NCBI GenBank assembly: GCA_021030905.1
Contig: JAGFMI010000004.1
Coordinates: 992,001-1,056,000 of the forward strand
Source: Pyrenula massariospora
Lineage: Eukaryota; Ascomycota; Eurotiomycetes; Pyrenulales; Pyrenulaceae
Reading direction: 5' to 3'
DNA: 64,000 nt
This document shows positions 44,430-64,000 of this stretch, in pieces (position 1 is the stretch's first letter; each line of letters starts with the position of its first letter). Made by a program: the position numbers and the translations under genes. The notes beneath the pieces are model-generated. The model was not told the DNA's origin and did not search any database. It saw only the letters and a program-made list of their open reading frames with translations.

Positions 44430-45638
44430 ATGGGCGGAGGAAGCACCGCGCCAGTGCCGGAGGAATATGATGATGGCGGCGCTGGCGGCCCCGGGGCACC
44501 AACGCCACTCGCAGCTCTCGAGGTACGAAGAGCATACAAATGCCAATTGATGTTACTGACAAGAATGTAATCATAGGGTATGTCCGGGTTGACCGCCCGC
44601 GATATCAAACTGTTTGTCGAAGGAGGTTACCACACCATCGAGGCTGTTGCTTACACGTATAGCAAGGCGAATCTCTTGTGGTGAAACAGTGCACTAATCC
44701 TTGAAACAGGCCTCGGAGACAACTGGAACAGATAAAGGGAGTCTCGGAGCAGAAAGCTACTAAGGTACTAGCTGAAGGTACTTCCCCTTGATATCCCTGC
44801 CGCAGCCACACCTGACAATCAAGTAGCAGCCAAAATCGTTCCAATGGGTTTCACGACCGCAACAGAAATGCACAACCGGCGCAGCGAGCTCATATCAATT
44901 ACGACCGGATCAAAACAATTGGACACTCTTCTTGCTGGTGGCGTTGAGACTGGCTCGATCACAGAAATCTTTGGGGAATTTCGGACGGGGAAGAGTCAGA
45001 TATGCCATACACTAGCAGTCACTTGCCAACTGCCGTTTGATATGGGTGGTGGCGAGGGTAAATGTCTCTACATTGACACGGAGGGAACATTCCGACCTGT
45101 CCGCCTACTAGCAGTCGCGAATCGATATGGCCTCTCTGGTGAAGAGGTTCTGGATAACGTCGCATACGCGCGAGCGTATAATTCTGATCATCAGCTCCAG
45201 CTGCTACAACAAGCATCGCAAATGATGTGTGAGACCCGGTTTTCGCTGATGATTGTCGACTCCGCCACGTCCCTATACCGAACAGATTTCGCAGGCCGAG
45301 GTGAGCTGTCTGCTCGACAAACACATCTTGCCAAGTTCATGCGCACCCTTCAGCGTCTTGCCGATGAGTTCGGCGTTGCAGTTGTCATCACGAACCAAGT
45401 CGTGGCCCAAGTCGATGGCGGACCAAGTGCGATGTTCAATCCTGATCCAAAGAAACCCATTGGAGGCAACATAATAGCACATTCAAGCACAACTCGGTTA
45501 AGTCTGAAGAAAGGACGCGGCGAAACGAGGATATGCAAGATTTACGATAGCCCTTGTTTGCCGGAGAGTGACTGCTTATTTGCAATCAATGACGACGGAA
45601 TAGGCGATCCCAGTCCGAAAGATTTGGAGAAGGAATAG
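44430..45638 (+). CDS. RAD51: DNA recombinase Rad51
   Basis: RecA-family ATPase that forms filaments on single-stranded DNA and catalyses strand exchange in homologous recombination, in the nucleus. Four exons: 44430-44522, 44577-44656, 44710-44777 and 44827-45638, totalling 350 aa, the usual length. The N-terminal domain contains [20 protein letters not shown] and an HhH-like [16 protein letters not shown]. The core has [18 protein letters not shown], Walker A GEFRTGKS at residue 130, [18 protein letters not shown], Walker B (LMIVDSAT, about residue 221), [38 protein letters not shown] and the C-terminal [18 protein letters not shown]. All three introns are 49-54 nt. The upstream box cluster fits cell-cycle control. 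Confidence 0.98.
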
Positions 45639-46231: not shown

Positions 46232-48523
46232 ATGTCTGCGAATGGTAAGCGAAAGAACTCATTGAAACGAAAGCAATCACTAACAAATATGCTGTGAGAA
46301 GGGCAGTTGGACGGTGCAGGCGGATCTACAAACGTGGATAATGCGCGAGCCGGTTTGGGCCAAGCACCTCACGTCACAAATATTAGCGATGCTCTCGAAA
46401 TTCTCTGCGGACCACTCCTTAACTATCAGCGAATGAGCAATGAAGGCGGACAAGCCACTTGGTTCGGCTCGGTACTCATTGTTACAAAGCCGACCAGGAA
46501 ACAGCCTCGACTCGAGCTAGTAACACTGGGGTCCACTGCAGACACGAATGGCACATCAAAGGGCGGCATATTCTCAAGAGGTCCAAAGACAACAAAGTTT
46601 GATGGTCTGAAGCTCTACGAGGACCCAGTCAAAGCGTTCTGGAGGTTCTCTTTGCAAGTTCCGTTGTCAGCGAGCGAGGCAAGATGGGAATACACAATAC
46701 CAGACATCAAATTTTTGTCGGAGGTGTCTACCGACCCCTCCCGCACTTTCGTTGTACCATCAGCTGAGGAATCTATGCGTATCATGTTCCACTCCTGCAA
46801 TGGGTTCTCTGTTGGCACCGATGAGGATTTCTGGTCTGGACCTGCGCTTTGGAACGACGTCCTTCGAACGCACGAGAAGAAGCCGTTCCATGTCATGATT
46901 GGAGGAGGCGATCAGATCTACAATGACGGTGTTCGAGTGAACGGCCCACTAAGGCCATGGACTGACATCAAGAACCCCAAGAAAAGGCGTGATTTCCCGT
47001 TTGGTGAGGCCATGCGCACGGATTGCGACAAGTTTTACTTTGAAAACTATGTCAGATGGTACAGCACGGAACCATTTGCGACGGCAAATGCTCAGATTCC
47101 GCAGATAAACATCTGGGACGATCACGACATTATCGACGGATTTGGCTCGTACACAGATCGTTTCATGAAATGTGCGGTGTTCAGGGGTATTGGTGGTGTC
47201 TCGTTCAAGTACTATTGCTTATTCCAGCACCATACTGCACCCCCAAGATCTACATTTACCACAGATGCGCCAGAGACAATGTCTGTCAAATCGGGTGGCA
47301 CCGGCATTGACGAGAGGCAACTTAAAGACACCTACGTCTACAAGGAGACCGCTGATGATCCCAGCTGGGTCGTCGGTAAACGTCCTGGTCCTTACGTTGA
47401 GGAGCACAGCCGCAATCTCGTCATGAGGCTCGGAAAGCGCATCATGTTTTGCGGCATCGACGCTCGCACTGAACGAACTCGCCATCAAGTCAACTACCCA
47501 GAAACCTATGACTTAATATTCAACCGCCTGTCTGCCGACCTTACTGCCACAAATGGCGAGATCAAGCATTTGGTCCTCCTTCTCGGTGTCCCTATCGCCT
47601 ACCCTCGCCTAGCCTGGCTCGAAAATCTCTTCAGCTCCCCATTAATTGCTCCCATACGCCTTCTAAACAAACGCTTCGGCGTTGCTGGCGGCTTCTTCAA
47701 CCACTTTGATGGCAGTGTCGATCTTCTCGACGACCTGGACGACCACTACACCGCCAAACACCACAAAAAGGAGCGCAAAGACTTCGTTCTCCGCCTCCAG
47801 GCACTCTCCCACAGGTTCTCTCTTCGCATCACTATCCTTGGCGGAGACGTCCACCTTGCCGCCCTCGGCCGCTTCTATTCAAATCCTAAACTCGGCATAC
47901 CCGCAGAGAAGGATCACAGATACATGGCCAACATTGTTAGCAGTGCGATCACCAACAAGCCACCGCCAAAAGCTGTCGCGAATCTCTTGGCCAGGAGAAA
48001 TCGGATCCACCACCTCGATCATGACACAGACGAGACACTCCTCAAGATGTTCGATCAGCAGCCCGGCGGCAAAGAAAAAGCCGCCGAGTTCAACAAGTGC
48101 ACGATGCCCAGCCGGAACTATGCTTGCATCACCGAAGTCGTGCCAAGGAGCCCGGCGCCGGCGCCAGGACCGAATGGGGTTCCAGAGACAGATGGAGAGC
48201 ATCATGAAAATGGGACGAAGAATGGTAACGGAAATGGGAATGGGAAGATCGTGGGACAACAGCCGCTGCATTCTGGTGAGGAGGGAGCGGGCACGACACA
48301 TCCGGCGGCTTCGGGCGTGACGAATGACAGTGGGATGGCGGGTGGGTTGGATGTCTCGATCAAGGTGGAGATTGATAATCGGTCGAGGGGTGGGGAGACG
48401 GAGGGGTATGGGTTTAGCAGTAAGTTTCCGCATTCAAGACTGGGTGCTGGGTGTCTTGTGTCATATGTGGATGCTAACGGTTGATGACGTGCAGTTCCTC
48501 CGCTGATCGTGGACGCGAAATGA
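46232..48523 (+). CDS. PhoD-like metallophosphatase
   Basis: Predicted metal-dependent phosphoesterase of the PhoD/alkaline phosphatase D superfamily, fungal subtype, 719 aa. Exons 46232-46244 (13 nt), 46302-48419 and 48495-48523. The first exon is MSAN plus one base; the last supplies a short IPPLIVDAK end, replacing an unspliced read-through. Metal-binding segments are visible: MFHSCNGFS, VMIGGGDQIYNDG (near residue 205), INIWDDHDIIDGFGSY (near 276), LGKRIMFCGIDARTER and ITILGGDVHLAALGRF (near 517). There is no signal peptide, so it probably acts inside the cell or at membranes. The C-terminal 130 residues are Gly/Asn/Pro-rich. Physiological substrate unknown. Confidence 0.9.
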
Positions 48524-49435: not shown

Positions 49436-52400
49436 TCACCTTCCTACAGCAATCAAGGGCAGCGCCAGCACCATTTGCTCGAACCTCCCCAGCAACCCTG
49501 CCGGTGGCGTTCCAACGATTTGATTGAACTTGTTGACTTTTCCTGTCTTGTTTTTTCCTTCCTCCTTCGTTTCGGCATCAAATCCCAGTCTTTTCGTCCA
49601 GATGTCGACCGCCGTTGCCGCATTGGCAGCTCCCTGTTTCGCCCACATTGCACTGACCTCTTTCCAATCTTTGCCCCGTTCCTTGAGCGACCATGCCGCA
49701 TCAGCTTCGGCACCCGGGTTAGGAAAATAGGGGTTCCGTATCTTGTCCTCACTTGGATCGATCGCCTTGCGCATCCGATCCTGCACCACATTAAATTTGT
49801 TTACGCGATCTTGGGCGAGAGCCGGGGCTGGCGGTCGAATCGACAGGCCCATCACGAGATCGACAGTAGCATCGTTGCCGTTCAGCAGATTTTCCGATCT
49901 GTTCCCGCTGGCTTGAGGGTCCAACTTCGGGTCATAGACGCCCCAAATCGAGGTCTGGACGGGTTTGACGGTCGGCTCGATGCGCCACTTCATCAATTTC
50001 CATGCATCTTCTTCGGCTACGTGAAACATGTCCTCCGTGTCTTCTGGTGGTAGAGTCGACTCGACGAGAATTTGTGCGTCCGAGGTCAGGGAATGCGTCA
50101 ACTGCATCGGACGGGCAAAAACCTGCCGATGCTTCTCCTCAATATTGTCGACCGTCTGTGACTTGGAGCTCCCATGGTCCCGAGACTCGGTCAGAGAGGC
50201 CTTGTTGACGGCAAACTGGAATGTGAGTAGGCATGAAAAGTCGCCGCCCTTGACGAGCCAGTCTGAGTTCTTTTCCTCGACCCCTGGATTGTTGGGACCG
50301 GCTCGTTGCGGCACAAGTCCCGACTCACATGTCAGTAGGATCGGTGCCGAGTCCGCCGCTCCGTCATCAGTGTACGGCGAAGGCGCGGGAAGGAACAGCG
50401 ATTTAGATGACGAACTGGATGACTTGAGCACGACTTGGCGAAACCTTTCCAGGGAGATAGGCCTTAGCCGTGGTGGTGCTTCCCCAAACTTGACGTCAAA
50501 TCCAAATACCCAAAAGTCAACATGCACTATCCCACCAAAAGGTGGACCTGACAGGTCGAGCGACGCGTTCACCTCAGCGTTGACGCGGATCGTGACGAAC
50601 CATACGTCCATGGTGAATCGCACGCCGACCGAGAGCCTTGCATACAGTTGGAAGTAGAAGGGCTCAAAGTTGATGAGGAAGTCGAGGAAGGCGTCAAACC
50701 AGGCGTACAGTGCTCCAAGGCTCAGTGCAGCGTGCAGACGGCCACCACCCATGCACACTTTGGGTGTTATTGCAAAATAAGCCTCACCAGTCACACTGAG
50801 GCTCGAGTCGAGTGACCAGGAGATTCCCAGGCGAGGCGGCTTTGGGTACTGCGGCGGAGGTCTGAATGCCTGATGATATCCTCCGAGACTAAGGACCCAG
50901 TCTCCAGCGTTGGCTCCGTTGTCATTGTCTTTATCCTTGAACCATGCATACATCGCCAATCCACCCGTGAGATGGCACTGTGGCGCTAGTACAAAGGAAC
51001 GGGGCGACAACTGGGCCTCCAACTTGAAGACACCACGGCTCGTGTCGAAAGTGCAGACGATTCCAAGCTCGACATGGGCGAATTTGAAAGGTGCGTCAAG
51101 TGCAGGTACATCGCACGTCGCGACCCCAAACAATCCGAATTGCAGCCCAGCACCGAACTGGACGACGATGACAAGGTCAGCGGCGATCATGTGGAACGCG
51201 GTGATCCGGACGCCTGCTGCGCCCCAATATAGGCCCTCGGCGGGCCGGAACCAGATGCCACGCATGAGCCGCTGCATGGTAGCAACAGGTGTCTCTTCCT
51301 TGTCGCTGCCTCTTTCTTTAATAAAGGGGAAGTCGAAGACCTGTTCGACTGTAGGCAGTGAAATGTCCGAGTTCATGCCGAAACCGCCGACGAGGCCTGT
51401 GAAGTCAGCGAAGCCTACCGTGAACAAAGGCCCGTTCAGCTTGCAAAAGATGAAGGAAAAGGTGAATTTCTCCTTCTGCACGGGATCTTCACTCAGGAGA
51501 CTCAGCGTGTTGATATGCGCCAGCGGGTCGAGGCTAATCTTCGTTTGCTTCGTGATAGTATCCTTCGTCACAGTCGCGTAGACGCCCATTGCTTGGAAAC
51601 TCCAAGGCTTGAAGCCTACGATGAGGCCACCCGCATATAGATCAACGTTTGGATCCGAAGTATCGTGTAGAAATCCACCTGCAACCGTCAACGGTGGTCG
51701 ATCAAGAGACACTATGAGGCCTTCCAGTCCCAACTGGATTTCTCCGATAGGAGGCATGTTTGACAGGTTGTACTTCTTGTTGAATGGAATTCCGATACTG
51801 AATCCCAGCAAGGCAATGCCAACCGGTCCCATCAGCAGTGTTGCATCGAGAGTAATCCCAAGCACTCCACCACTTTCTGCTCCGTGGGGTTTGTACCAGA
51901 GCGCAACATTCTCGATGGACAATGGACCCATTGTCGTCTTGAGTGGTGCCTTTGTCCCTTTTTCTGCACCTGAAGCATCTGGAACTTGAGGTTTATCACT
52001 TCCTGGCCCCATCGTGAGGGCCTTTGGCGTCTTCTCCTTTTGCGGCTTAGCAAATGCATAGTCGAGAATAACGTCAAGCTTGCCACTCGTGTTCTTTGCC
52101 ACGACGACAAGATGCTGGCCGGCCGAGATGACAATCTTGTTCGTTTCACTCGGCTCCTCCGACAATTTGGCGCTCTGGCCAAGAGGCTTCTCCTTATTCG
52201 GCTTAAATAGTAGGAAGTCATCTTCACGGAGCTCGGCGTTCTTGGTCAGACACTCCTTCAGTGTGTCAAATTCGGCCTTTGTAACCCCTAGACCCAAAGT
52301 ACTCCGCTCATCACCCGGTGTATTGTCCTGAGTCCACAGCCAGAACAGCTGCTCAAAGGGGCTGTCAATCGTGGTATTGAAAGCCGGAACGTCAACGGAG

Positions 52401-55400
52401 ACCTTGCTGATTGCCGCCTTGACGAACCGCTTCATCACCCCTGGTTTCCCATCTTTACACTGCTGCCGTAACTGTACAAACCACAAGCTAAGACTCCCGA
52501 TATTGACAATCATAGCAAACACGATCAACCCCTTATGCTTTGCACACAGCACGCGGAACGGCTTCTCGCCTCTGGTGCCTCCCAGCTTAGCCGACATGAT
52601 GGGTCCTGGGATCCCGATAATGGTTTCCGGTTTAATGAAACTCTCAAGCACAGTCCCAATCGTACACTCGACACCTACCTCCGTCTCGGCAGCCAAAGAC
52701 CCCTCAAAAAGCCAATTTTCTGCCCCTGAATTTTCATATTTCATTCCCAGCTTTAGTACAGTACCAAGCGCAATTACACCCGTGAACGAGAACTTCTTAC
52801 CGATCCCCTTCTCGAACTCATACTTTAAGTTCGCGTATTCAATCTCAATCTTGCTCATGAATGCCAGTACATCACTCTGGTCGTCCTCATGCCAGAACGA
52901 AACCAAGTGCTCGATCGTCAGGTTGTACGTCTCGGCCTCTAGCGTCCAATTACCTTTGGTATACTCGAACGTACCGCGTAGGCGGGCCATCTCGTCCATC
53001 TGCTTCGCGATATTATTTGTTGGATTGGCGGGATCGAGCTTCCCCCCGCGGAAGAGCGACACATCGATCCCAAGCCGCAGTTCGAAGCCCTTGTCGTCGG
53101 GTGTTTTGGCACCCCAGGTGTAGCGGGCATCGAGCTCGACGTTGTCAAGAGAGATTGGAGGTGGTTTCTCTTTGTCCGTTGTTTTGACCTTGGGCGCGGG
53201 ACAGCGGATTGCGCCGCCGAAACGGACGTCCGTTTTGGAGAGCTCGAGTGAGGCACGGTAGATCTCTTTGGGCACCCAGGCCGGCATACTGTCCAGTGTG
53301 CCGTTGGGCGTTAGGCGGCAGATGTTGAGGGTGCGGAGAGGGTTCGTCTTGGAGGGCTTCGTCATCGGATATAGGGGAATGAACTCTTCCCAGCCTGGAA
53401 GAGCCTTTTCGTACTCATCAAATGGGCTTTCTGGAGCACCTGAAAGGACATCAGTGTTGCCCTTCGATTTGTCTTACCTGTTCCGAAGAAATGCTAAGAG
53501 GAAAGGGATACTCACAACACCAGAGTCGCCCGTTAAAATAGACGTCCCTGTCCTTGCTCCACCCAAACTCAAGTAAAAAAAGCAACGGCTCGCTCTCTAG
53601 CGCAGCGACAGGTGGCTTTCCAATGTTCAGACACAACTCAACCGACAAGCTCGCAGCTTGAATTCTCTCGATGTTCCCCTTGGCATCCAACTTGAGCGCG
53701 AGCTCAAGTCTTCTCAGGTAGATCTTGGACCCATCAACTAAGGCACCATTTTGTTCGCTCTTTGCCTTGTTGAGCTGGTCCATTATGTCTAGCTGGTCAA
53801 CCTTGAGCGCCACTTTGAGCCAGTCGACCAAATCAATGAGGCCGTTCTCCTGCAGAGCACGTATCCCTTGTTTTGTACTCGGATCGACCAAGGTCAGTGT
53901 TAGGCCGGCCATATCTTTGTTGAGACCTATGGCCACGTTGAAATTCAGCTTTGCAATGACCATCCTGGCAAGGAACGTCAAATTGCCCTTTGGCTCGACA
54001 AATTCTGCCTGGTTTTGGAAGATAAATGTTGCTTGCTTCCGTGCAACCACGAGAACCTCTTTGATCTCTACCCCGGGAAGCCATTTGCCAAGCCAGTCGT
54101 TGAATAAAGATGATTTTGCTCTGAATTGGAGCCGCAGTGTCGTCTGGTAGTCGATTCCAGGGCGAAACCACATCGCGTTGCGGAAGTCTTTGGCCGTGTC
54201 GAGCGTGAGGCTGAACTTGCTGAAGTGGTTGAGCGCCGGCCGTTCTTTAAAATCAATCATAAACAGCTTGGCCACTTCGCCCACGTCTGTATCAATCGTC
54301 GTTGCGCCCGAAGAGAGCGCCTCGAGGCCGAAGACCATGGTGCGCCGTTTGACGAGCATCTTTTGCAATGAAGAAGCGTCCACTCCGACATCTTTGAAGC
54401 TGGAAACAGCCCCCACATCTGTGCTCATAATGAATTTTTCCCCATTCATAAAGGGGAATTTGAGAGAGAAATGCAAGTCAGCGGAGTGATTGTTTCCGAT
54501 CGGCCAGACACTGGGCGTCATAGAAATTTCAAAATCTTTTGGAGCCAAACCGACGGTGTAATCCCAGGTTAGAAAGATCTGAAACCAGGCGCGCATCTCG
54601 TCGTCTGCGGCGAGTGGTGTAGGTTGGTTGCTCGTGGGGACGCTGTCGAGCGAGAAGAGCCGGAAGTGAGTGGTGTCAACAAAGCCGAAAAGCGAGTGGG
54701 CACTGTTGAGGGTCTCAATAATCCCACCTTTTGGGAAGTTGCTATTCTTGTCGAGGGGCTCGGCAGCTATGTAGACGGCAGGTGCTGCTATGTGTGCTGG
54801 GGTATCGCAGTATTTGAGAGCCGTAGGTCTTTCCACAAGGAGCCATTGGTCCTCTACGTCCGAGCTGCAGTTGTCGCTGGTGTAGGCATTGGCCCAAGAG
54901 CCATGTCGTTGATGGCCAATATGTTTATGACGATTAACCATTTCTGGGGAGGGTTCCTGCACACGACTTGCGGGCGGTTCAGGCTTCAAGGTGAGATCCC
55001 GGACGCCTGGTTGATCCTCGCCTCTATCGACAAACAGGTTGATGACCCGCACAGAATTGCCATTTGCAGCGCCCCACGCTCTCAACAGTGTGTGTCCGCG
55101 AGGGAAGACCTGCCTGAAGGGCGGTTTTGGGTTGACGTAATGGAAAGGTGATTTTTTCTTGAAGCAAACTTGCATCTCGCCATTACGATCGTCATTCGGC
55201 GACGAGAGAATGCTGATAAATGCGATTCTCTCGTTTTCATCCTCAATCTGGTCAGTGGTGGCTGCATCATCGTTACCTCCGCCAAAACTTCCCCACATGG
55301 GTTTCGACATGTCCTCTGCCAGTAGTGAGATGGTCGCCATCACTTGAGCTATCATCTCGCAAATCTTAAGTCTTTTCTGCGATTCATTGGGTTGATATAG

Positions 55401-56785
55401 CTTCACCCACTGGTCGAACTCCTCGAGTGCGCTCACCAAGTAGTTGCTCCCCTGTGGTAGGCTATCTCGGTACTCTTGCTGACGCTTGGTAACCCACTTG
55501 TGCAGCTCACTCGTACTTGCAATCTCGTTGATAGCCCAGTCTCTTGGCTGGTAGTGACCACAACTATTGCGGATGAGGTAAGACGGAAATTGGGTGGCCA
55601 CGAAAGGAGAGCGCCGATTGCCGTGTTTACCGTACACGTGTCTTAGCCTGTACCAAGATTCAAGAATCAGAAGCACTTCCCAGCCTACGAAACTCGTTAG
55701 TAGTCTGAGTTTCCATGAAAGACGCACCACACTGAATGTAAATACTCACGGGGGTGGCCGTACTGGTCGCCAGCCGACACTACAACATTCACCGGGTCAA
55801 AGCCGGTGATCATAGCTGGGGGGTTCGACGTGTATGCACCATGGTGGCTCAGCTTCATTGAAGTAGAGGGCCATTCGGTGGTCCATCTACTGATCTTTTC
55901 CTCCATTGCGTCGTGCGCATCGCCGCCAAAGTAGTGGGTTATGCGCTTGGAATTCCATATGACCATCAAAACAATGCTTGACATGTTGGTTTCGGTATAT
56001 TGGATTTCTAGGTCCTCTCCGAGCACCTTCTGTTGCACAGCCACGCAATATAGGCCCGGAATAAGGTCGTATTGCAGGTTAGGCTGGTCGACAGGCGCGT
56101 TCTTTTGGAGAAGTGCAGAGGGGTTTGTTATTTGGTCCCAATGACCGTCAAAGAGTTTGTCTTGGTCAGCATCGTGATTGAAGAGGTTGCGGCCGAGCAA
56201 CTGCTGTGGGCCCCACAGGAGTTTGAGCTGATTTTGAGCCTTGCGCAGCTTGGGAGCATCAGTGACGCGGTCATAACTGTTACTGCTTATATGGACCATG
56301 CTATCAGCTCCGTCAAGCTCAATACCCCTGGCCGTGAGATTCTTGTTCAGGTTTGCAACGAACAAATACGATTCTGGTGCCCCGTCTGTGTTATAGAACG
56401 CCCGCGACAGCTGTAGTAGATCATCTTCAGGCTGAATGAAGCATGCAGCGAGATGATCACTGTGGAGAAAGGCGATGACGCCCTCGTAGTGATCTGAGTC
56501 CCAATGTGTAATGACAAACCCATCGAATTTCAATTTTCGCCGATCGGGATAAAAAGGGATCTTTTTACCCTGACACACATAACGGGATTCGATCTCTGAG
56601 ATAGTCCAGTCGATCGACTCCTTGACGCCGGCGCCGGAGCCGAAATGTTTACCGCCGTCGACGAAGTACGCGCGCCGCACGACTCGTCTATCAGTACCAT
56701 CGTTGGGCTCTGAAAGGAGCAAATGGATCGCTGCGTCGCCAGCGCCGACGTTGATGTGGAATGACTCGACTTCATAGCAACTCAT
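49436..56785 (-). CDS. Giant fusion protein: metallo-beta-lactamase fold + DUF6603-type region
   Basis: Three exons join in frame: 56785-55750, 55684-53516 and 53439-49436, totalling 2402 aa. The introns are 65 and 76 nt with GTGAGT donors and GTAG/TTTCAG acceptors. Residues 1-345 are a metallo-beta-lactamase fold like the ComEC C-terminal domain: NVGAGDAAIHLL (12-23), FVDGG, THWDSDHYEG with H94, D96, D98 and H99, FGGDA (286-290), KLSHHG (311-316) and SAGDQYGHP (337-345). All the expected metal ligands seem present, so hydrolase activity is plausible. The middle, about 346-1540, is beta-rich and unassigned. Residues about 1570-2060 (genome about 51930-50470) match the DUF6603 pattern, with repeated hydrophobic strands, LGGYHQAF...PKPPRLGISW, GEAYFAITPKVCMGG and a run of Phe/Tyr-rich strands. 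The C-terminus lacks a clear anchor. There is no signal peptide at the N-terminus. Function unknown; the domain calls come from sequence pattern only. Confidence 0.75.
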
Positions 56786-58026
56786 CTCTCGAAGATATCT
56801 CCCTTTTCTAGCTTTGTGGAACAGATGAAGAACAGAGGCGAATCCTAGTCATTAGCTTATAATCGAAGCAGCAACAACATCAAACGCCTCAAACGCTATC
56901 TCAGAAGAAAGTCGATACAAAAAAGCCAAGCTACCTTCACTTTTCAAGTGATGTGTCTCTAGTTTCGAAGAGAAGAAGAAAAGAAGTTAGCTTCAGAACT
57001 ACCTGAAGCGCCTCGTCCGATATCATGATAGATACCTCTAGGCACCCTGGCCATTGCCATTTTGAGATACTTCCACTTTTCCCACGACGTCCGGGGGCCG
57101 ACTGGCTGAAAGTGGCGTTCATGTAGCGAGCTGGGACTTGCATTGAAGCAGTGCCTAGACCATCGTACGCTAGCCGTGTTTGCTCAGTGTATTTACCAGA
57201 CTTTTCCACAACCCCTTCCCTCGCGTTCACCGTCAGCCTGACGGCGGCGTGGTGATGAACTCTCTTAGCTTGCATAGACAAATGGCCTGGACCGTAGTGG
57301 TGTCCAGATCAAGCTCAGTCCTGTTGGGAAGATTAAGCCCAGAACATTATGTGTGGTCTACAAACAGCAGCCGCTAACCCTTTCCTTCTTGATCGTCAAG
57401 TGTGGTGTCGAGCAGCTTTTTCTACCTTGCGCTGAGCCTTTCTGCTCTTAATTCGTTGATGCATCTTGTCATGACGCATTGTTCACGGCTCTCGGGGAGA
57501 TTTGAAGATGCTTACGCCCGCCTCGTTTCAATTCATCGCCCTTGAGTAGAGCCGCTAAATGCGGTGTCGTGAGAGCGGTTCTGTCACATATACTTGGTGT
57601 CGTGATTGTAGAGGCTCGCGGAAAGAGCACCCGGCATCGGAAAAATGAAGCATAGGGAGCTAAGAGTGCATATAGAGTCGACAGTTTAGTCCCGCAATTC
57701 ACAAATCTAGGCATCTACCCCGCGCGCCAATTGTCATTGTCATATCTCGCAGTCATCTCAGAAGACACGGCATCTCACGGCAGCTATGAATAGAGGGTTT
57801 AGAGAATAGTAGAGCCTCCAGTGCGTGATCGAATCATGTTTCTCCATAGAAAGCACCATCATGATTGTGGGCATAGCTTGAGCTTTATCTTAACCCCGTT
57901 GACCGCCAACCCGGCAGAAACCTCAATTTCAAGTTCTACTTCTGTCGGACCACCCGCATCGGCACTGCTGCTGCTACTGCGAACCTCTACTGCTGCTGAA
58001 GAGGAAGAAGAGGGAACCTTGGCCAG
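56786..58026. other. Intergenic region within the giant-gene locus
   Basis: About 1.2 kb between two minus-strand genes. A minus-strand frame at 56937-57281 (114 codons) has a weakly protein-like composition but no start context, splice links or domain. I do not call it a gene. Confidence 0.45.
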
Positions 58027-59235
58027 TCATTTCTGATGCGCCCAGCTATCTTTCACCGCGCCGACCCCACTGCTCCCCCTTAGCAGCGTATACACCCAGT
58101 TGCACTTATTCGCCGGGTCTGGAACAACACTTATCTGGGCCCCAGTCTCCACTTGAGTAGCCTGTTCGCCGACCTTGACAAAGTCCTTGGAGAACTGCGG
58201 CCGTGGCTTGCCCGATTCGATGTCCGCCCAGGTGCGGTGTAGAAGGTCACCCGTACCTTCAGAGTGCAAAAAGTAGAGAAATACACGCCCAAGTTTCCCG
58301 GGACCTGGCGTCCAGCCCGGTGCGCCGTCGGGGTTCAAGTCAGCAGCTGAAATGAACTGGGCAGCGATGGACGTGCCATTCTTGAACTTGGAGCTATCCT
58401 TGTTGACATCGGTGTCTGGCAGTAGTATTGGTTAGTATATGGAGCTTGGTAGAGTTTCGAGGAGCAACAACGGACCTTCCCCTTCATTCACGTGCCACAC
58501 GGCCACCCGATGTTCTGTTGTCTCGTAGACGACCCACGGTGATTCGCCATCGTAGAAGGAGGCGAGCCACGTCTTGTCGAGCACCGGACCCACGCTTAGC
58601 GGGGCGATGGATGATCCATTCTTTGAAATTTTGTTCTGATAAATAACAGCGTTTTTACCCGTGTCATCGAGGCTGCACAACTACATAAACAACCGCCTAA
58701 GACCCCCCAAAAAGGGTAGGAAAAGGGACGCTCACGTCTGGAAGTAGATGAACTGGTTGTCTTTATTGTCCGTGCACCCAGCTATCAGGCCGTTGGGGAT
58801 AGGCTGCTTAGGGCTGACCAGCTCAAAGACGGGGCTCAGGAGAGCCGTGATAGGAACGGGCTCCTGAATGCCACCTGCAAGCGGAGGTGCCCCCCCTGCA
58901 GCACTCACTGCCGTAGGGGTTGTAAGTACGACGCCATATACAAAGACCTAAGTCGACTGCGGTCAGTCATTCATCAATCGTCAACGACCGGTAGGTTTGA
59001 TGAAAAGACTAACTATATCATCATAATTGATGGTGACGAGAGACGAGGGGCTCTTGATCACGGGCACCACAGGTTTGGTGGTCGTCCCGTCGCCCCGCGC
59101 CTTCGTGCGCAGGCCGTTCACGTCGTACTGCTCAAACAAGAGGGTGTGGTTGTCAGAGGACGCGGAGAAAATGAACGCACGATGGCGGTTCGAATTGACG
59201 GTGGCAGGGTTGAGGATGGCAGAGATTGCGGCCAT
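58027..59235 (-). CDS. Predicted beta-propeller or lectin-like protein of the giant-gene locus
   Basis: Four exons (59235-59014, 58947-58736, 58672-58476, 58415-58027) join in frame to give 339 aa. The introns are 60-66 nt; one donor is GTTAGT and another GTCCGT, both weak, but the last has a perfect TACTAAC branch site. The protein has no signal peptide, transmembrane segment or cysteine pattern. It shows repeated short beta-strand units ending in aromatic/Tyr-Gln or Tyr-Glu pairs (RAFIFSASSDNHTLLFEQYD, NQFIYFQT, ASFYDGESPWVVYE, RVFLYFLHSEG, NWVYTLL), as seen in fungal fucose-lectin-type or sialidase-type beta-propellers. This fold call is inference. It lies between the MBL-DUF6603 gene and the gene running off the right edge, all three on the same strand. 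Confidence 0.7.
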
Positions 59236-59623
59236 GATGGTAAGTCTGACAATAGGACAACAAGGAGCAAAACTGTTTTGATTGGATCAAAAGAGTTTTC
59301 GGAGAAAGGTTCGAGAAATAAGATAACATTTGCACATCTTATATGCTGCTCCTCGCAGAATGCTTAACGCGCTTTACCTTGCCCTGCGGCAGGGATGTGC
59401 TCAACTGGTTCGCGAAGCAAGCGAAGTCTACGGCGGCGCCTTTTCATGGAGGTGTCCATATGACGAACTACCGCTGGCGCGGAAGACAATGTGTTCCCCA
59501 GGTTCTAGAGCTGCGTCTGGGATGAATAGCTCGATAAAGGAGATCATTCAGCTGGGGCGTAAGGTGGAACTGTGGAAAGGGTGAGACTCACCTCGAGTGC
59601 CGATCCTGTGGCTGGCTGTATTC

Positions 59624-59760
59624 CTTTATGGTATTATCGACGGGTTTTTGATTGGTCTGCCTCGGTCCATGCTAACCATGAGCCAGGTTGGCACAGATAG
59701 AATTTGGGATGGCACGGGCCGAGGCAGACCAATTTAAAAACAGTCGATAACACCACAAAG
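59624..59760. mobile_element. 137-bp fold-back (MITE-like) element
   Basis: Two 42-bp inverted repeats (59624-59665 and 59719-59760) match at 36 of 42 positions and end in an identical ATTGGTCTGCCTCGG inner part; weaker pairing extends about 12 bp further in. The loop is about 50 bp. No coding capacity and no clear target-site duplication. It fits a non-autonomous miniature inverted-repeat element or another hairpin-forming sequence. Confidence 0.55.
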
Positions 59761-59840
59761 CCTAGGTCTCGCATCTGCATGCACCTAACGGACTATGCTA
59801 CTTCGGTTCATACATAATGCCATTTCGAGCCATATTTTGC

Positions 59841-59890
59841 CACATTAAGCCACATTAAGCCACATTAAGCCGCATCGGGCCACATTGGGC
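59841..59890. repeat. 10-bp tandem repeat (cacattaagc)
   Basis: Three perfect copies of cacattaagc (59841-59870) followed by two diverged units (cgcatcgggc, cacattgggc). Confidence 0.85.
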
Positions 59891-60118
59891 TAGAACCTTG
59901 CGAGTATGCAAGCAATGGGGAAATGGCACACGCATTTCAGCAGATAGTGGCATTACTCTCTGGGCCGAGGATTTCGGTCGATTTTCCTCGTGAGCGAAGG
60001 ACTGAATCCTCCACTCCTTAGGAAACCGCTAGAGCACGCGAGAGGCATATCAAATGCAGAAATCCACGGGAACTTCGTCCTACATGAGTTGTGCTTTTAC
60101 AATAGCAAAGCTACAGAA

Positions 60119-63100
60119 CTAGGCAATCGCCCCCGGATTCGTGCCGCTTCCATTCGGTGCTGCCGCCATTTGTAAATAGCCCTCCACCGCTGTGTACGGG
60201 CCTTCTTCTAGTCTTGCCGTCTCATTCGCGAGCTCCACGGGAAGCGGCATGAACTTCTCCCTCGCTTTGCCCTCACCTTCACTCTGCATTCCCTCTTGCT
60301 TACCATCCCACTGCATGTACGGCTGCAGCCAGCTCCAATGCCCCAACGCTCCACCTGGCAGCGCAACTCTACCCTCCCCCTTTTCCTTCTTCTCGACAAC
60401 TTTGGGCGGCAACATTCCCTGCTTCAGCTCCCTGGTCTGGTCAAAGTCGGGCAGGTCGTTAGTAATCAGCATCGGCCCTATGTGGAAGAAGGCTGACAGC
60501 CGGTCCAGCGCTCCCTGCCATGTCCAATTCGGTAGGGCAAGCTCCTTGACAGGGAGAACCCCCGAGTAAGTGTGGCATGGTAGGAAGGGATCGACTATGG
60601 CGCCGAAGACTGAGAACCTGCTGTTTGTAGCATTGTCGTAGGACTCAGGTGTGATGGTATCTGGGTCGATGTAGTATGGCGCAAGAAGCGGGTAGTTAGC
60701 CTTAGTGATCTCAACGATGTTGTTCTCCGCTGCCGCGATAAGACGTTCTCTGCCCCACGCGGTGACTTCTGGAGGAGACCACTTGGACAGCTCGGCAGTT
60801 GCGACGGTAGAACGCGGATGGAAGTGCGTGTACACGGTGGACAAGTTGAGCGCATCGCCCGGTTCGAGGTTATTGTCGTAAGGCAAAAAGTAACCTACTA
60901 GCCCATCGACGCCGCGCTCCTTGTCTCCGAGCTTGACGGGGAATCGGTAGTACTTTTTGTCATAACCAGGATCTGTCGGCCTTTCATTAGGATCTTTTGG
61001 ATACAGCCTCTTTCTCGGCAACCCATCATCTGTCAACTGGCTCTCCAACGCCGGGCCGGCCAGCTCCAGTGAGATACCAACGTGTGTCAACGCCAGCGGC
61101 CTGCCTAGAATTGCGCTTCTGAACTCCGCGTACGCACTCGGCGCCGCCTGTTGCGTTGCGGTAGCCGCGTTCACCATGGCAATGAAACCCTTGAGATACG
61201 TTGCGCTGCCCGCCAGGGTCTCGACGAGTCGAGCAAGTTGTTTTCCGGCGACGCCACCGTCCTCGTCGCCACCACGCTTGTCGGGATCGTCAGGCTTCTG
61301 GAAGGGAAGCCACTCGGGAGACATCTGCGCGCCCGTAGGCCCGGCACGGCGCACCTCGCGGTAGAAAGCGCCACTGGGAAGGAAGAATTGTAGGCCAATA
61401 TTAGCATAGTTGACGACGACCCAGCCCCAAATGGGCTGATCCCAGTCGTTTGCTTCCCGCCAGAAGGGTTCCTTGTTGTCTTCCCCTTTTTCTGCTCCTA
61501 CCGTAAGCAATAGCTTCTGGACTCGTGGAAGCTTTGGAGAAGCAGGAGGTTGAGGGGGCATAACGAAGACGGCATTTAGGCGAGCTGGTTGGTTCAGCTG
61601 CGGCGGCACCTGGATGAACTCGCATTTCTTCTTCTCATCATCTGGGGTGTATTTGTCAAATTGCCATACCACATTCGGGATCTCCCCCTTTTCATCCTTG
61701 GCCTGCGGAGCATACCAATCGCTGATGCATGGCCAGAGCTTGGGGGGCTTCGTGGACGGCGTTGGATCCACGGCATGAATAGCCTGCCCGAACTTGTCGA
61801 CTACATTCAGCTTCGTGATTCGGAACTGTCCATGCGTCACCGGCTTGAATGTAGATGGACCATCCTTGCCAAGACTCTTCTTGTGGCTCGCATACGGCGT
61901 CAGGTCCGTCTCAATGTCCATTTTCGAGAGATATTTTTTGCTCAGCCCAGCGTCATCACGCGCCGCCTCCTCCATGAAGCGCAAAGAGCCTGTTAGTGGA
62001 TCACGAATGGCAGGCTTGACATGATTGCCTTGCTCGCAAGTAAGCAGGTGACTGTTAAAACCGGCCAACGGCGCCGACAAGAACGCCAGCTTGTTGAGGT
62101 TGGCCTCAAGCTCGCCGCGCTTGGGCTGAGGGAGCAGCTTTTCCAGCTCCGTCTGTGGCATGTCGAGAAAGAGTTGTGCAATCTTGGCTTCGAGGGAGAA
62201 ACTCGGTTGAGGGAGAATGAGCACCCGGCCGGAAAGACGCTGGCGGTCTGTTTTTTCTTTTTGCTGCCTTTCTTTGTCGTCAACCTGGCCGTACTGATCA
62301 CCCAAATCGACATCACCCCTGACAGCATAATGCAGCCTAGCGCCTTCACTGTGCCACCACCGCGACTCGGAAAGTTCCCAGTCCTTGTGGAGAATGTGTG
62401 TGTACTCCACCTCCCACTCAAGATAAAGTGGAAACCAAGGCTGCGTGTCATTCCAGGAATCTCGCCAGCACGGTTGATCGTTATAGTCGAAGCCAAGACG
62501 GTCATGGAAGATAGGGATCTCAGAGGTAAGTTTGGGAGGAACGTTGGGGGGAGCAGGCTCCGCAAACGTCGTCCTCTGCTCAGCAACCGTCATCATGAGT
62601 CCCTGTGCCCTCAAAATGCTGGGTTTTCTTGGCTGTGCGTCGTCTTTGTCGTCACGCCTCGTTCGAAGAAGGACAAACTCTCGAACCAGGGCTTTCGCCG
62701 ACGTCTGCAGCCGTGCTGGAAATTTCTTGTCGAAGAAGTTGGTAAACAGGGTGGCCCAGCTTCCAGTGTCCTCATTTGGAAACTTTTTCATCGCCTCAGG
62801 CATTACCTGACAGTCCAGGCGTACCAGCAACGCATGTAAGTAATCTGGTTCCCAGCCCGATCGCACACCACCCACCAACAACGTCGGGTCACGTTGTTGT
62901 TGGAACGGGTCATGCACTCCCGGCTGGAATTCTTTCCTCGCATCATCTTCTTTGCCTGCCATGGCGGTTATTTCTTTCACGTATGTCTCCTTCTGTTTGT
63001 CCAAATCGTATGTGCTTTGGAGTATAGGCGCCAATGTCTGCTTCACATCGCCTTCGCTCTTAGCAAGTGTGACAGCCTTCCACCATTCCGAAAATACGGT

Positions 63101-64000
63101 CCACCGTTGATATTTCAGTTTTCGGTCCACCGCATCGCGAAGTCGGCACATCTTATTCAGCTCCGCAAGTTTAGCCTGCTTGTCTACGGGCAGGATTGGC
63201 CTCCCACCTTCTTTATTGTTGCCAGATGCATGGTAGTGGTCGCCGCCATCGAGACGAAGATAGTTCCAGTTGTACATCATATCCGCCGCCTCTGCATGTG
63301 CCTCCACGCCGTCGTCGCGGCGCAAGAGTGCGGTCTCCAAGCGTTTTAGGGCTGCCTCGATTTGCTGTGGCACGCCTCGGTCGATCTTTTCATGGGCCCC
63401 GGCATAGGTCATGAGAGCATCCATGGGGGTTGTGCCCACCGCAATAGGTAGCGTGCCTGTCAGGAGAGCGGCATACTTGTCGGCAAGCACGTGTTTGGGT
63501 GCTTCTTTCAGGTTCCATTTCACATCGTACATGGCGCCGTGACAGAGACTGAGTGTGTATTTCTCCTTTTGAAGGTCCTTGTTGAACCAATCTGCGATTT
63601 GTTGCGGTGCCGTCTTAGGGGTGACGGTTTTGTAGCCCTTGATTTCCATATTCAGTGCCTTGAGCCTCTCTTTTCGAGACTGAGTTCCCTGGTATATGAG
63701 ATCTTTGGGGGGCTTCGAGTACCAGCCAAGAACGAAGTAGCTGGCCGAGACCTCGGAAGCATACACCGGCTTATCGTCAATAGTGTCGTACTGGAAGTTG
63801 TCGACGATCGAGAAGACATTGGAGCAGTGCGGCTGGAAGTCTGGGAATAGTTCGTTGGACGAGCTCAGCAACTGCAAGTTGACTCTTGACTTTTTCGGGT
63901 CAGGCGTCGCGTCTGCGGGAGCTGTTTCTGTCCAGCTCAACGCATCTATTTTATCGCCGATGAAAACCTCAGCTTGTCTCTGCAGGATGCGCTCGTCATC
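60119..64000 (-). CDS. Very large protein of unknown function, 5' end beyond window
   Basis: A single exon of at least 1293 codons; the frame is still open at the right edge (residues DDERILQRQAEVFIGDK... precede any start), so the N-terminus lies outside. No named family recognised. There is no signal peptide or membrane segment in the visible part. Notable stretches are PHCSNVFSIVDNFQY and ASEVSASYFVLGWYS near the visible N-terminus, a charged helical part, HGQFRITKLNVVDKFGQAI in the middle, GWVVVNYANIGLQFFLPSG, an Ala-rich helix, LGRPLALTHVGISLELAGPA, GVDGLVGYFLPYDNNL and VFGAIVDPFLPCHTYSGVLP near the C-terminus. GC content and codon use look coding throughout. It is on the same strand as the lectin-like and MBL-DUF6603 genes, so it may belong with them. 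The visible part is too large and ordered to be a relic. Confidence 0.8.
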   Translation of the reverse strand, partial: DDERILQRQAEVFIGDKIDALSWTETAPADATPDPKKSRVNLQLLSSSNELFPDFQPHCSNVFSIVDNFQYDTIDDKPVYASEVSASYFVLGWYSKPPKDLIYQGTQSRKERLKALNMEIKGYKTVTPKTAPQQIADWFNKDLQKEKYTLSLCHGAMYDVKWNLKEAPKHVLADKYAALLTGTLPIAVGTTPMDALMTYAGAHEKIDRGVPQQIEAALKRLETALLRRDDGVEAHAEAADMMYNWNYLRLDGGDHYHASGNNKEGGRPILPVDKQAKLAELNKMCRLRDAVDRKLKYQRWTVFSEWWKAVTLAKSEGDVKQTLAPILQSTYDLDKQKETYVKEITAMAGKEDDARKEFQPGVHDPFQQQRDPTLLVGGVRSGWEPDYLHALLVRLDCQVMPEAMKKFPNEDTGSWATLFTNFFDKKFPARLQTSAKALVREFVLLRTRRDDKDDAQPRKPSILRAQGLMMTVAEQRTTFAEPAPPNVPPKLTSEIPIFHDRLGFDYNDQPCWRDSWNDTQPWFPLYLEWEVEYTHILHKDWELSESRWWHSEGARLHYAVRGDVDLGDQYGQVDDKERQQKEKTDRQRLSGRVLILPQPSFSLEAKIAQLFLDMPQTELEKLLPQPKRGELEANLNKLAFLSAPLAGFNSHLLTCEQGNHVKPAIRDPLTGSLRFMEEAARDDAGLSKKYLSKMDIETDLTPYASHKKSLGKDGPSTFKPVTHGQFRITKLNVVDKFGQAIHAVDPTPSTKPPKLWPCISDWYAPQAKDEKGEIPNVVWQFDKYTPDDEKKKCEFIQVPPQLNQPARLNAVFVMPPQPPASPKLPRVQKLLLTVGAEKGEDNKEPFWREANDWDQPIWGWVVVNYANIGLQFFLPSGAFYREVRRAGPTGAQMSPEWLPFQKPDDPDKRGGDEDGGVAGKQLARLVETLAGSATYLKGFIAMVNAATATQQAAPSAYAEFRSAILGRPLALTHVGISLELAGPALESQLTDDGLPRKRLYPKDPNERPTDPGYDKKYYRFPVKLGDKERGVDGLVGYFLPYDNNLEPGDALNLSTVYTHFHPRSTVATAELSKWSPPEVTAWGRERLIAAAENNIVEITKANYPLLAPYYIDPDTITPESYDNATNSRFSVFGAIVDPFLPCHTYSGVLPVKELALPNWTWQGALDRLSAFFHIGPMLITNDLPDFDQTRELKQGMLPPKVVEKKEKGEGRVALPGGALGHWSWLQPYMQWDGKQEGMQSEGEGKAREKFMPLPVELANETARLEEGPYTAVEGYLQMAAAPNGSGTNPGAIA

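Follow-up and report, generated by a model that had tools for sequence, protein, structure and literature searches.

A locus of Pyrenula massariospora as the fungal form of a bacterial module with a constant DUF6603 core and exchangeable binder and enzyme parts

Several described systems resemble parts of a gene locus found at the right end of a 64,000-nucleotide stretch of the ascomycete Pyrenula massariospora (assembly GCA_021030905.1, contig JAGFMI010000004.1, forward-strand positions 992,001 to 1,056,000). This whole stretch, hereafter the window, is G000:C28:992001-1056000 within a 37.8-Mb genome. The locus has three consecutive, intact minus-strand genes, named here M (2402 amino acids, aa; a metallo-beta-lactamase (MBL) fold joined to a DUF6603 domain), L (339 aa) and A, and a fourth gene, D, beyond the window edge; in its bacterial relatives an enzyme, X, is encoded directly before M, and a binding protein usually follows A. 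Polymorphic toxin systems, as described in PMC3482391, are like it in combining a constant carrier with exchangeable effectors, many of them nucleases, peptidases and lipid enzymes, in having adhesion domains such as laminin-G, and in spreading by transfer, also to fungi. They differ in that what is exchanged here is not a C-terminal tail but a gene of its own along with the N-terminal half of M, and no immunity gene was seen; besides, an exchangeable effector on a constant carrier was found only in the bacterial kin of the locus. ComEC and the antiphage MBL nucleases share the MBL fold with its HxDxDH and HHG motifs, and in PMC12799240 MBL proteins of antiphage modules are likened to ComEC nucleases and are reported to be turned into DNases by cleavage; there, however, the MBL protein precedes a protease-fused effector, whereas here it is fused to DUF6603. 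Phage-tail-like injection systems might be brought to mind by the Collar, Gp10_C and Peptidase_S74 families in the bacterial binder slot, but no sheath or tube family was found in the top neighbour families, and Collar occurred in 2 of 56 downstream open reading frames (ORFs). Tc toxin complexes also consist of three large proteins with enzymatic cargo; M, A and D, however, matched no toxin-complex Pfam family at E ≤ 1 and have a different architecture. To our knowledge, no described carrier of a polymorphic toxin system corresponds to M, D or A. The domain DUF6603 (PF20248) is listed with unknown function and was not mentioned in the literature searched; its stable neighbours D and A have no family above cut-off, and the slots around it are variable.

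We found that the locus is, with near certainty, the fungal form of a bacterial module. Its constant parts are D, A and that half of M which carries DUF6603. Two parts are exchangeable: a binder, usually encoded right after A (L in this fungus), and the enzyme X together with the N-terminal half of M. Three giant families without assigned function in the libraries searched are joined in this way into one system, which occurs in nine named bacterial phyla and many filamentous fungi, and the exchangeable enzyme slot is the first functional clue to M, D and A as well as a list of activities to assay.

The first-pass annotation of the window had proposed three intact minus-strand genes of 2402, 339 and at least 1293 residues, the first with an MBL fold and DUF6603, and both proposals were borne out. 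Gene models reproduced all three genes, and M is a clear member of PF20248 (488 bits against a cut-off of 27), the sole Pfam match above cut-off in the locus. MBL metal-site motifs stand in M in the right order, HWDSDH at residue 94 (56506-56489) and SHHG at residue 313 (55849-55838). Among NCBIfam models, the MBL exon matched Avs1a (NF041809; E 9.8e-11) with 41 bits, below the equivalog cut-off of 420 bits and not enough for membership, and ComEC_Rec2 (E 1.7e-4); among PADLOC models it matched LmuA (E 2.1e-11), RTasMBL and Avs1a, and the nearest PDB chain was ComEC (E 0.016). The MBL domain is a hydrolase of the ComEC/Avs1a/LmuA kind and probably a DNase. DNA would be its likeliest substrate because the antiphage MBLs that PMC12799240 likens to ComEC nucleases are reported there to become DNases. 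The exon also matched phrog_7043 (‘tail protein’) over 83 residues (E 1.1e-7), so MBL domains occur in phage tail proteins too. A and D had no match above cut-off in Pfam or NCBIfam, and such matches as PHROGs, PADLOC and PDB gave were not convincing. L had no Pfam match at E ≤ 1 and no PDB sequence below E 0.39; the ‘propeller/lectin-like’ character that the first-pass annotation had given it found no backing there, and L may be lectin- or propeller-like by its look alone.

When GTDB contigs with DUF6603 were scanned by pattern, 384 relatives came up, of which 80 bacterial or archaeal loci (L006-L085) were kept. When profiles of A (built from 120 fungal-type proteins) and D (from 96) were run over these loci, both were found in 71. 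Seven loci had only D, one had only A and one had neither of them; these nine were 6.1 to 15.2 kb long and cut by contig ends. Gene orders were M-D-A (36 loci) and A-M-D (32). Similarly, tblastn placed DUF6603 and fungal-type A a few kb apart on plasmids of Streptomyces clavuligerus, Embleya sp. NBC_00888, Paenibacillus polymyxa and Streptomyces sp. NBC_01276; on the plasmid of Embleya sp. NBC_00896 the best places of the two were about 100 kb apart. Two phylum surveys, 540 genomes together, gave matching presence and absence. In 296 genomes of Actinomycetota we found D in 5 (one of the five matches being weak, E 5e-7), A in 4 and DUF6603 in 9; all 5 genomes with D were among the 9, and in the 4 with A the genes A, D and M followed one another on a single contig. 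Among 244 Cyanobacteriota, D and DUF6603 occurred in the same 4 genomes and A in 3 of them, one genome having two complete cassettes. All 9 genomes with D therefore also had DUF6603, an overlap with a hypergeometric probability of about 7e-9 per survey, or 2e-7 and 4e-7 without the centre genomes, which had been chosen because they carry the module. In one Actinomycetota genome the match to A has an in-frame TAG (G253:C30:39303-42749), and in one locus D is in two pieces (L057:4023-6279); both may be decaying copies or errors. Neighbouring genes were noted for two plasmid cassettes. Upstream of that of P. polymyxa (L086:5793-11805) are two genes for ‘phage baseplate assembly protein V’, one for DUF4280 and a short one for a GH-E nuclease, and near that of Streptomyces NBC_01276 (L087:3001-8057) are CATRA caspase-associated and CHAT conflict genes.

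A binder family was present in 57 of the 80 loci and lay directly after A in 51 of the 55 in which both were called. There were 67 binder ORFs (L089 included), and the 58 that were scanned contained Laminin_G_3 (18), Laminin_G_2 (6), Peptidase_S74 (6), Collar (3), THOC3 propeller (3), YNCE propeller (3), Lactonase propeller (2) and Gp10_C (1); judging by these families, the proteins look like binding tips. In 27 of the 80 loci the enzyme slot X was occupied by an MBL protein, and perhaps it is so in more, since the ORF of L061 has MBL-like motifs by eye; the slot MBL of L018 matched PADLOC LmuA (E 1.7e-21). Upstream ORFs of 40 other loci matched 12 families, including Exo_endo_phos (5), DUF4135 (2) and, once each, Peptidase_S8, Lipase_3, Trypsin, HNH, LCAT and RIP (E 7e-4). 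At least 25 of these 40 ORFs, some of them doubtful frames, matched nothing at E ≤ 0.01, and 13 of the 80 loci had no usable upstream ORF. Three giant bacterial M proteins (P0294, P0297 and P0300; 3154-3624 aa) seem by eye to have an internal alpha/beta-hydrolase-like segment with HSxAG, perhaps an enzyme fused into M, as in fungi.

In the clearest bacterial cases, the carrier stays constant and the enzyme changes in one unit with the N-terminal half of M. For example, L031 and L043, both from Microcystis, have D 82%, A 80% and the binding protein 56% identical; the enzyme of one is a 439-aa MBL and that of the other a 1065-aa protein of no known family, without similarity to it, and M is about 22% identical over the first 400 residues and 75-91% from residue 600. 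L048 and L056 (D 76%, A 87%) also have enzymes without similarity, and in L055 and L019 (D 90%, A 90%) the two MBLs are just 35-41% identical. In these three pairs and in L022/L053, M was 16-60% identical in its first 400-500 residues; over the last 600 the range was 64-100%, with most values above 80%. The same-enzyme pair L020/L034 (enzyme 94%) had M at 95% and 98%, and L063/L066, with the enzyme uncalled, had 61-96% throughout. Among 97 pairs with similar C-terminal parts of M, the median identity of the N-terminal part was 58% with enzymes alike (n=24) and 21% with enzymes unlike (n=73); the p of 8e-8 is only indicative, since the pairs share loci and are not independent, and the C-part medians of 89% and 64% make the unlike group more distant overall.

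In fungi, homologues at E ≤ 0.001 numbered 363 for A, 311 for D and 60 for M. Among the matches listed (the best 120, 120 and 60), at least 35 contigs hold A and D, and at least 16 hold M in addition to these two; the 16 all come from named fungi. Locus tags place D, A and M close together in Fusarium lateritium (ACHAPT_008699, 008700 and 008702), Heterodermia (Q9195_004528, 004529 and 004531), Arthrobotrys conoides (TWF506_006104, 006105 and 006107) and Orbilia blumenaviensis (TWF730_010040, 010039 and 010037), and A and M in Fusarium proliferatum (FPRO06_13014 and 13012). As seen from the tag numbers only, one tag stands between A and M in these five clusters, which is the position of L here. 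Cladobotryum has two tags between A and M, Rhizina has the order D, M, A, and Cladophialophora has the three genes on one contig with tags far apart. When a profile was built only from bacterial slot MBLs, 35 of 49 fungal-type M proteins matched it in their N-terminal part (E 9e-14 to 2e-38), so fungal M corresponds to X and M in one protein; the HxDxDH and HHG motifs are kept in most of the 35, and the fungal order A-L-[MBL-M] mirrors the bacterial A-binder-X-M. In the remaining 14 the region is absent or the start is different. P0282, P0284 and P0288 are fungal DUF6603 proteins whose N-terminus is not an MBL domain; they may represent variants of the enzyme slot in fungi.

These results bear on what the first-pass annotation had said of the three genes together. 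Its suggestion of a functional module agrees with the repeated co-occurrence in distant taxa (at least 16 fungal contigs, 71 of 80 loci and the two surveys), and the outcome that it had named as grounds for giving the idea up, homologues scattered and never adjacent, was not observed, as homologues proved to be neighbours in fungi and bacteria. Extending the contig to the right, as it advised in the expectation of more members, completed A and revealed D. Its picture of three families side by side stands for M and A; the conserved core, however, is M, D and A rather than M, L and A. It had also supposed a transfer followed by the gain of introns. The first part fits a tree of 83 D proteins, made by a quick method with one rate model and midpoint rooting (the root was not inferred), and the second does not extend to the whole locus, as introns are present in M and L and in neither A nor D. 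In this tree the 12 fungal rows form one clade (Shimodaira-Hasegawa-like approximate likelihood ratio test, SH-aLRT, 100) on a long stem, and the bacterial rows fall into a mostly A-M-D and a mostly M-D-A group, with Actinomycetota, Bacteroidota and others mixed in both. The phyla are Actinomycetota, Bacillota, Cyanobacteriota, Chloroflexota, Bacteroidota, Chlorobiota, Acidobacteriota, Myxococcota and Pseudomonadota, besides one metagenome-assembled genome labelled Methanoculleus and candidate division KSB1. The simplest reading of the tree would be spread between bacteria and a single entry into fungi, presumably in the direction from bacteria to fungi.

Structure prediction gave for a bacterial D (802 aa) a model with a mean predicted local distance difference test (pLDDT) of 86 and a predicted template modelling score (pTM) of 0.81, consisting of immunoglobulin-like sandwiches and a helical part and without an overall structural match. 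The model of the last 1194 residues of M was weak (pLDDT 67.6, pTM 0.45) and had many long antiparallel strands; its matches were barrels, ushers and apolipoprotein B, all with low template modelling scores. The difference in hydropathy between the two faces of the DUF6603 strands was 2.7, larger than in any of 2000 shuffles, whose mean was 1.4 and whose maximum was 2.2. A membrane or lipid role of M may be suggested by these models as a lead only.

We lean slightly towards the view that the locus encodes a modular, toxin-like complex for effector delivery with a DNase-type MBL. D and A would build a complex with M, the binding protein would pick the target surface, and the long amphipathic beta-meander of M would either wrap the enzyme or insert in or contact a membrane. 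The enzyme, here probably a DNase, would then act on the target, or on its own cell in a setting of incompatibility or infection. Complex formation, delivery, membrane action and DNA as the substrate are steps that we infer. In a broader form, on which we are somewhat more doubtful than confident, DUF6603-D-A would be an undescribed class of delivery machine in bacteria, filamentous fungi and possibly archaea, with X and the N-terminal half of M swapped as a unit and an exchangeable fibre or lectin for targeting; Pezizomycotina would have acquired it once, fused the nuclease, and kept it as a eukaryotic weapon or incompatibility system built on a bacterial plan. If enzymes are indeed delivered into other cells, this would be a new kind of carrier of unknown structure. 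Several observations weigh against effector delivery by such a module. No signal peptide was evident, as judged by eye only, and no immunity-like or secretion gene was recurrent (71 of 98 upstream or middle ORFs and 56 of 64 downstream ORFs, top 25 families). The fungal enzyme looks fixed (MBL in 35 of 49), swapping being seen in bacterial kin. The fungal stretch from MBL to DUF6603 had no clear similarity to bacterial N-terminal halves of M (best 17 bits), and loci with MBL did not differ from other loci in likeness to the fungal middle part (p 0.19). L adjoins A and lies between A and M, as bacterial A-M-D binders do, and has no family match. Of the 9 Actinomycetota genomes with DUF6603, 5 had no detected A, four of these also no D; L064 has a binder-like ORF in the 0.6 kb after M where D is expected, and L082 has no D in its 0.86 kb after M. 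To these are added the weakness of the M model and, for the linked swap, the limits of the pair comparison and the fact that 27 of the 73 unlike-enzyme pairs keep an N-part of 38-83%. All but one of these 27 involve the actinobacterial loci L013, L017, L027 or L077; the enzyme call of L027 looks like a wrong frame, and that of L013 does not.

The main rival explanation, which appears unlikely to us, though less so than the others, is intracellular defence or self/non-self recognition, in which M, D and A would sense infection or an incompatible partner and release a DNA-destroying MBL nuclease, the other X proteins being cell-death effectors. Exchangeable effectors are typical of defence too, and the patchy module and a D tree scrambled across phyla, as well as the lack of signal peptides noted above, would fit this explanation. 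It also draws on the Avs1a, LmuA and RTasMBL matches of the fungal MBL and the LmuA match of the L018 slot MBL, and on PMC12799240, which describes several antiphage systems in which ComEC-like MBL nucleases are kept as proenzymes. However, outside the MBL exon M, A and D matched no PADLOC model at E ≤ 0.1 and contained no sensor or NTPase family above cut-off, and the slot beside A carries collar, laminin-G/ConA and endosialidase-chaperone domains, which point to extracellular binding. If the module does act inside the cell, it would be a new fungal defence or incompatibility system with bacterial roots. Another rival is an assembly of hydrolases at the surface or outside the cell that serves feeding or adhesion, in which M, D and A would be a scaffold displaying lectins and digestive enzymes. 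We regard this as quite improbable, because the largest identified group in the enzyme slot is that of putative nucleases (MBL in 27 of the 80 loci, and among the 40 others 5 Exo_endo_phos and 1 HNH), and because the enzyme can change along with half of M between cassettes whose D and A are 76-94% identical, which resembles an arms race more than feeding. That unrelated large genes came together in this fungus by chance is refuted by the repeated adjacency, seen among fungi as well as in 71 of the 80 loci from bacteria or archaea, and by the matching presence and absence in the 540 genomes.

Coordinates of the features of the locus are collected in Table 1. Start and splice sites of M, L, A and D were read from the sequence alone. 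The contig beyond the window completes A as a single exon of 1503 aa, with an assumed start ATG at C28:1056630. DUF6603, D, A and the MBL exon each matched one place in the 37.8-Mb genome, so M, A and D are single copy.

Table 1. Features of the locus; positions are those of the window unless a contig is given.
Feature	Position	Strand	Description or basis
Gene M	49436-56785	-	3 exons 56785-55750, 55684-53516, 53439-49436; GT-AG introns; 2402 aa; internal stops 0
M exon 1: MBL fold domain	55750..56785	-	gene model, motifs, NCBIfam, PADLOC, bacterial slot-MBL profile
M exon 2: middle part of M	53516..55684	-	gene model; without Pfam match or known family
M exon 3: beta-rich part and C-terminus	49436..53439	-	PF20248, structure model, strand amphipathicity
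DUF6603 in M exon 3	51940-50426	-	PF20248
Gene L	58027-59235	-	4 exons 59235-59014, 58947-58736, 58672-58476, 58415-58027; GT-AG introns; 339 aa
Gene A, C-terminal 1293 of 1503 aa	60119..64000	-	open over the whole window-edge stretch
Gene D	G000:C28:1057944-1061435	+	outside the window; 1163 aa, one exon; divergent from A

The left neighbours of M, at 44844-45638 and 46307-48484, look by eye like a RAD51/RecA-type gene and a gene for a phosphatase of the PhoD type; the module thus has ordinary genes around it. Between L and A there is a 54-base imperfect inverted repeat (59624-59677 and 59707-59760), whose arms are 81% complementary and separated by 29 bases; it may be a hairpin or what is left of a small mobile element. 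Beside it, a GGCTTAATGTG-like unit was seen by eye to recur in short tandem copies at about 59830-59890.

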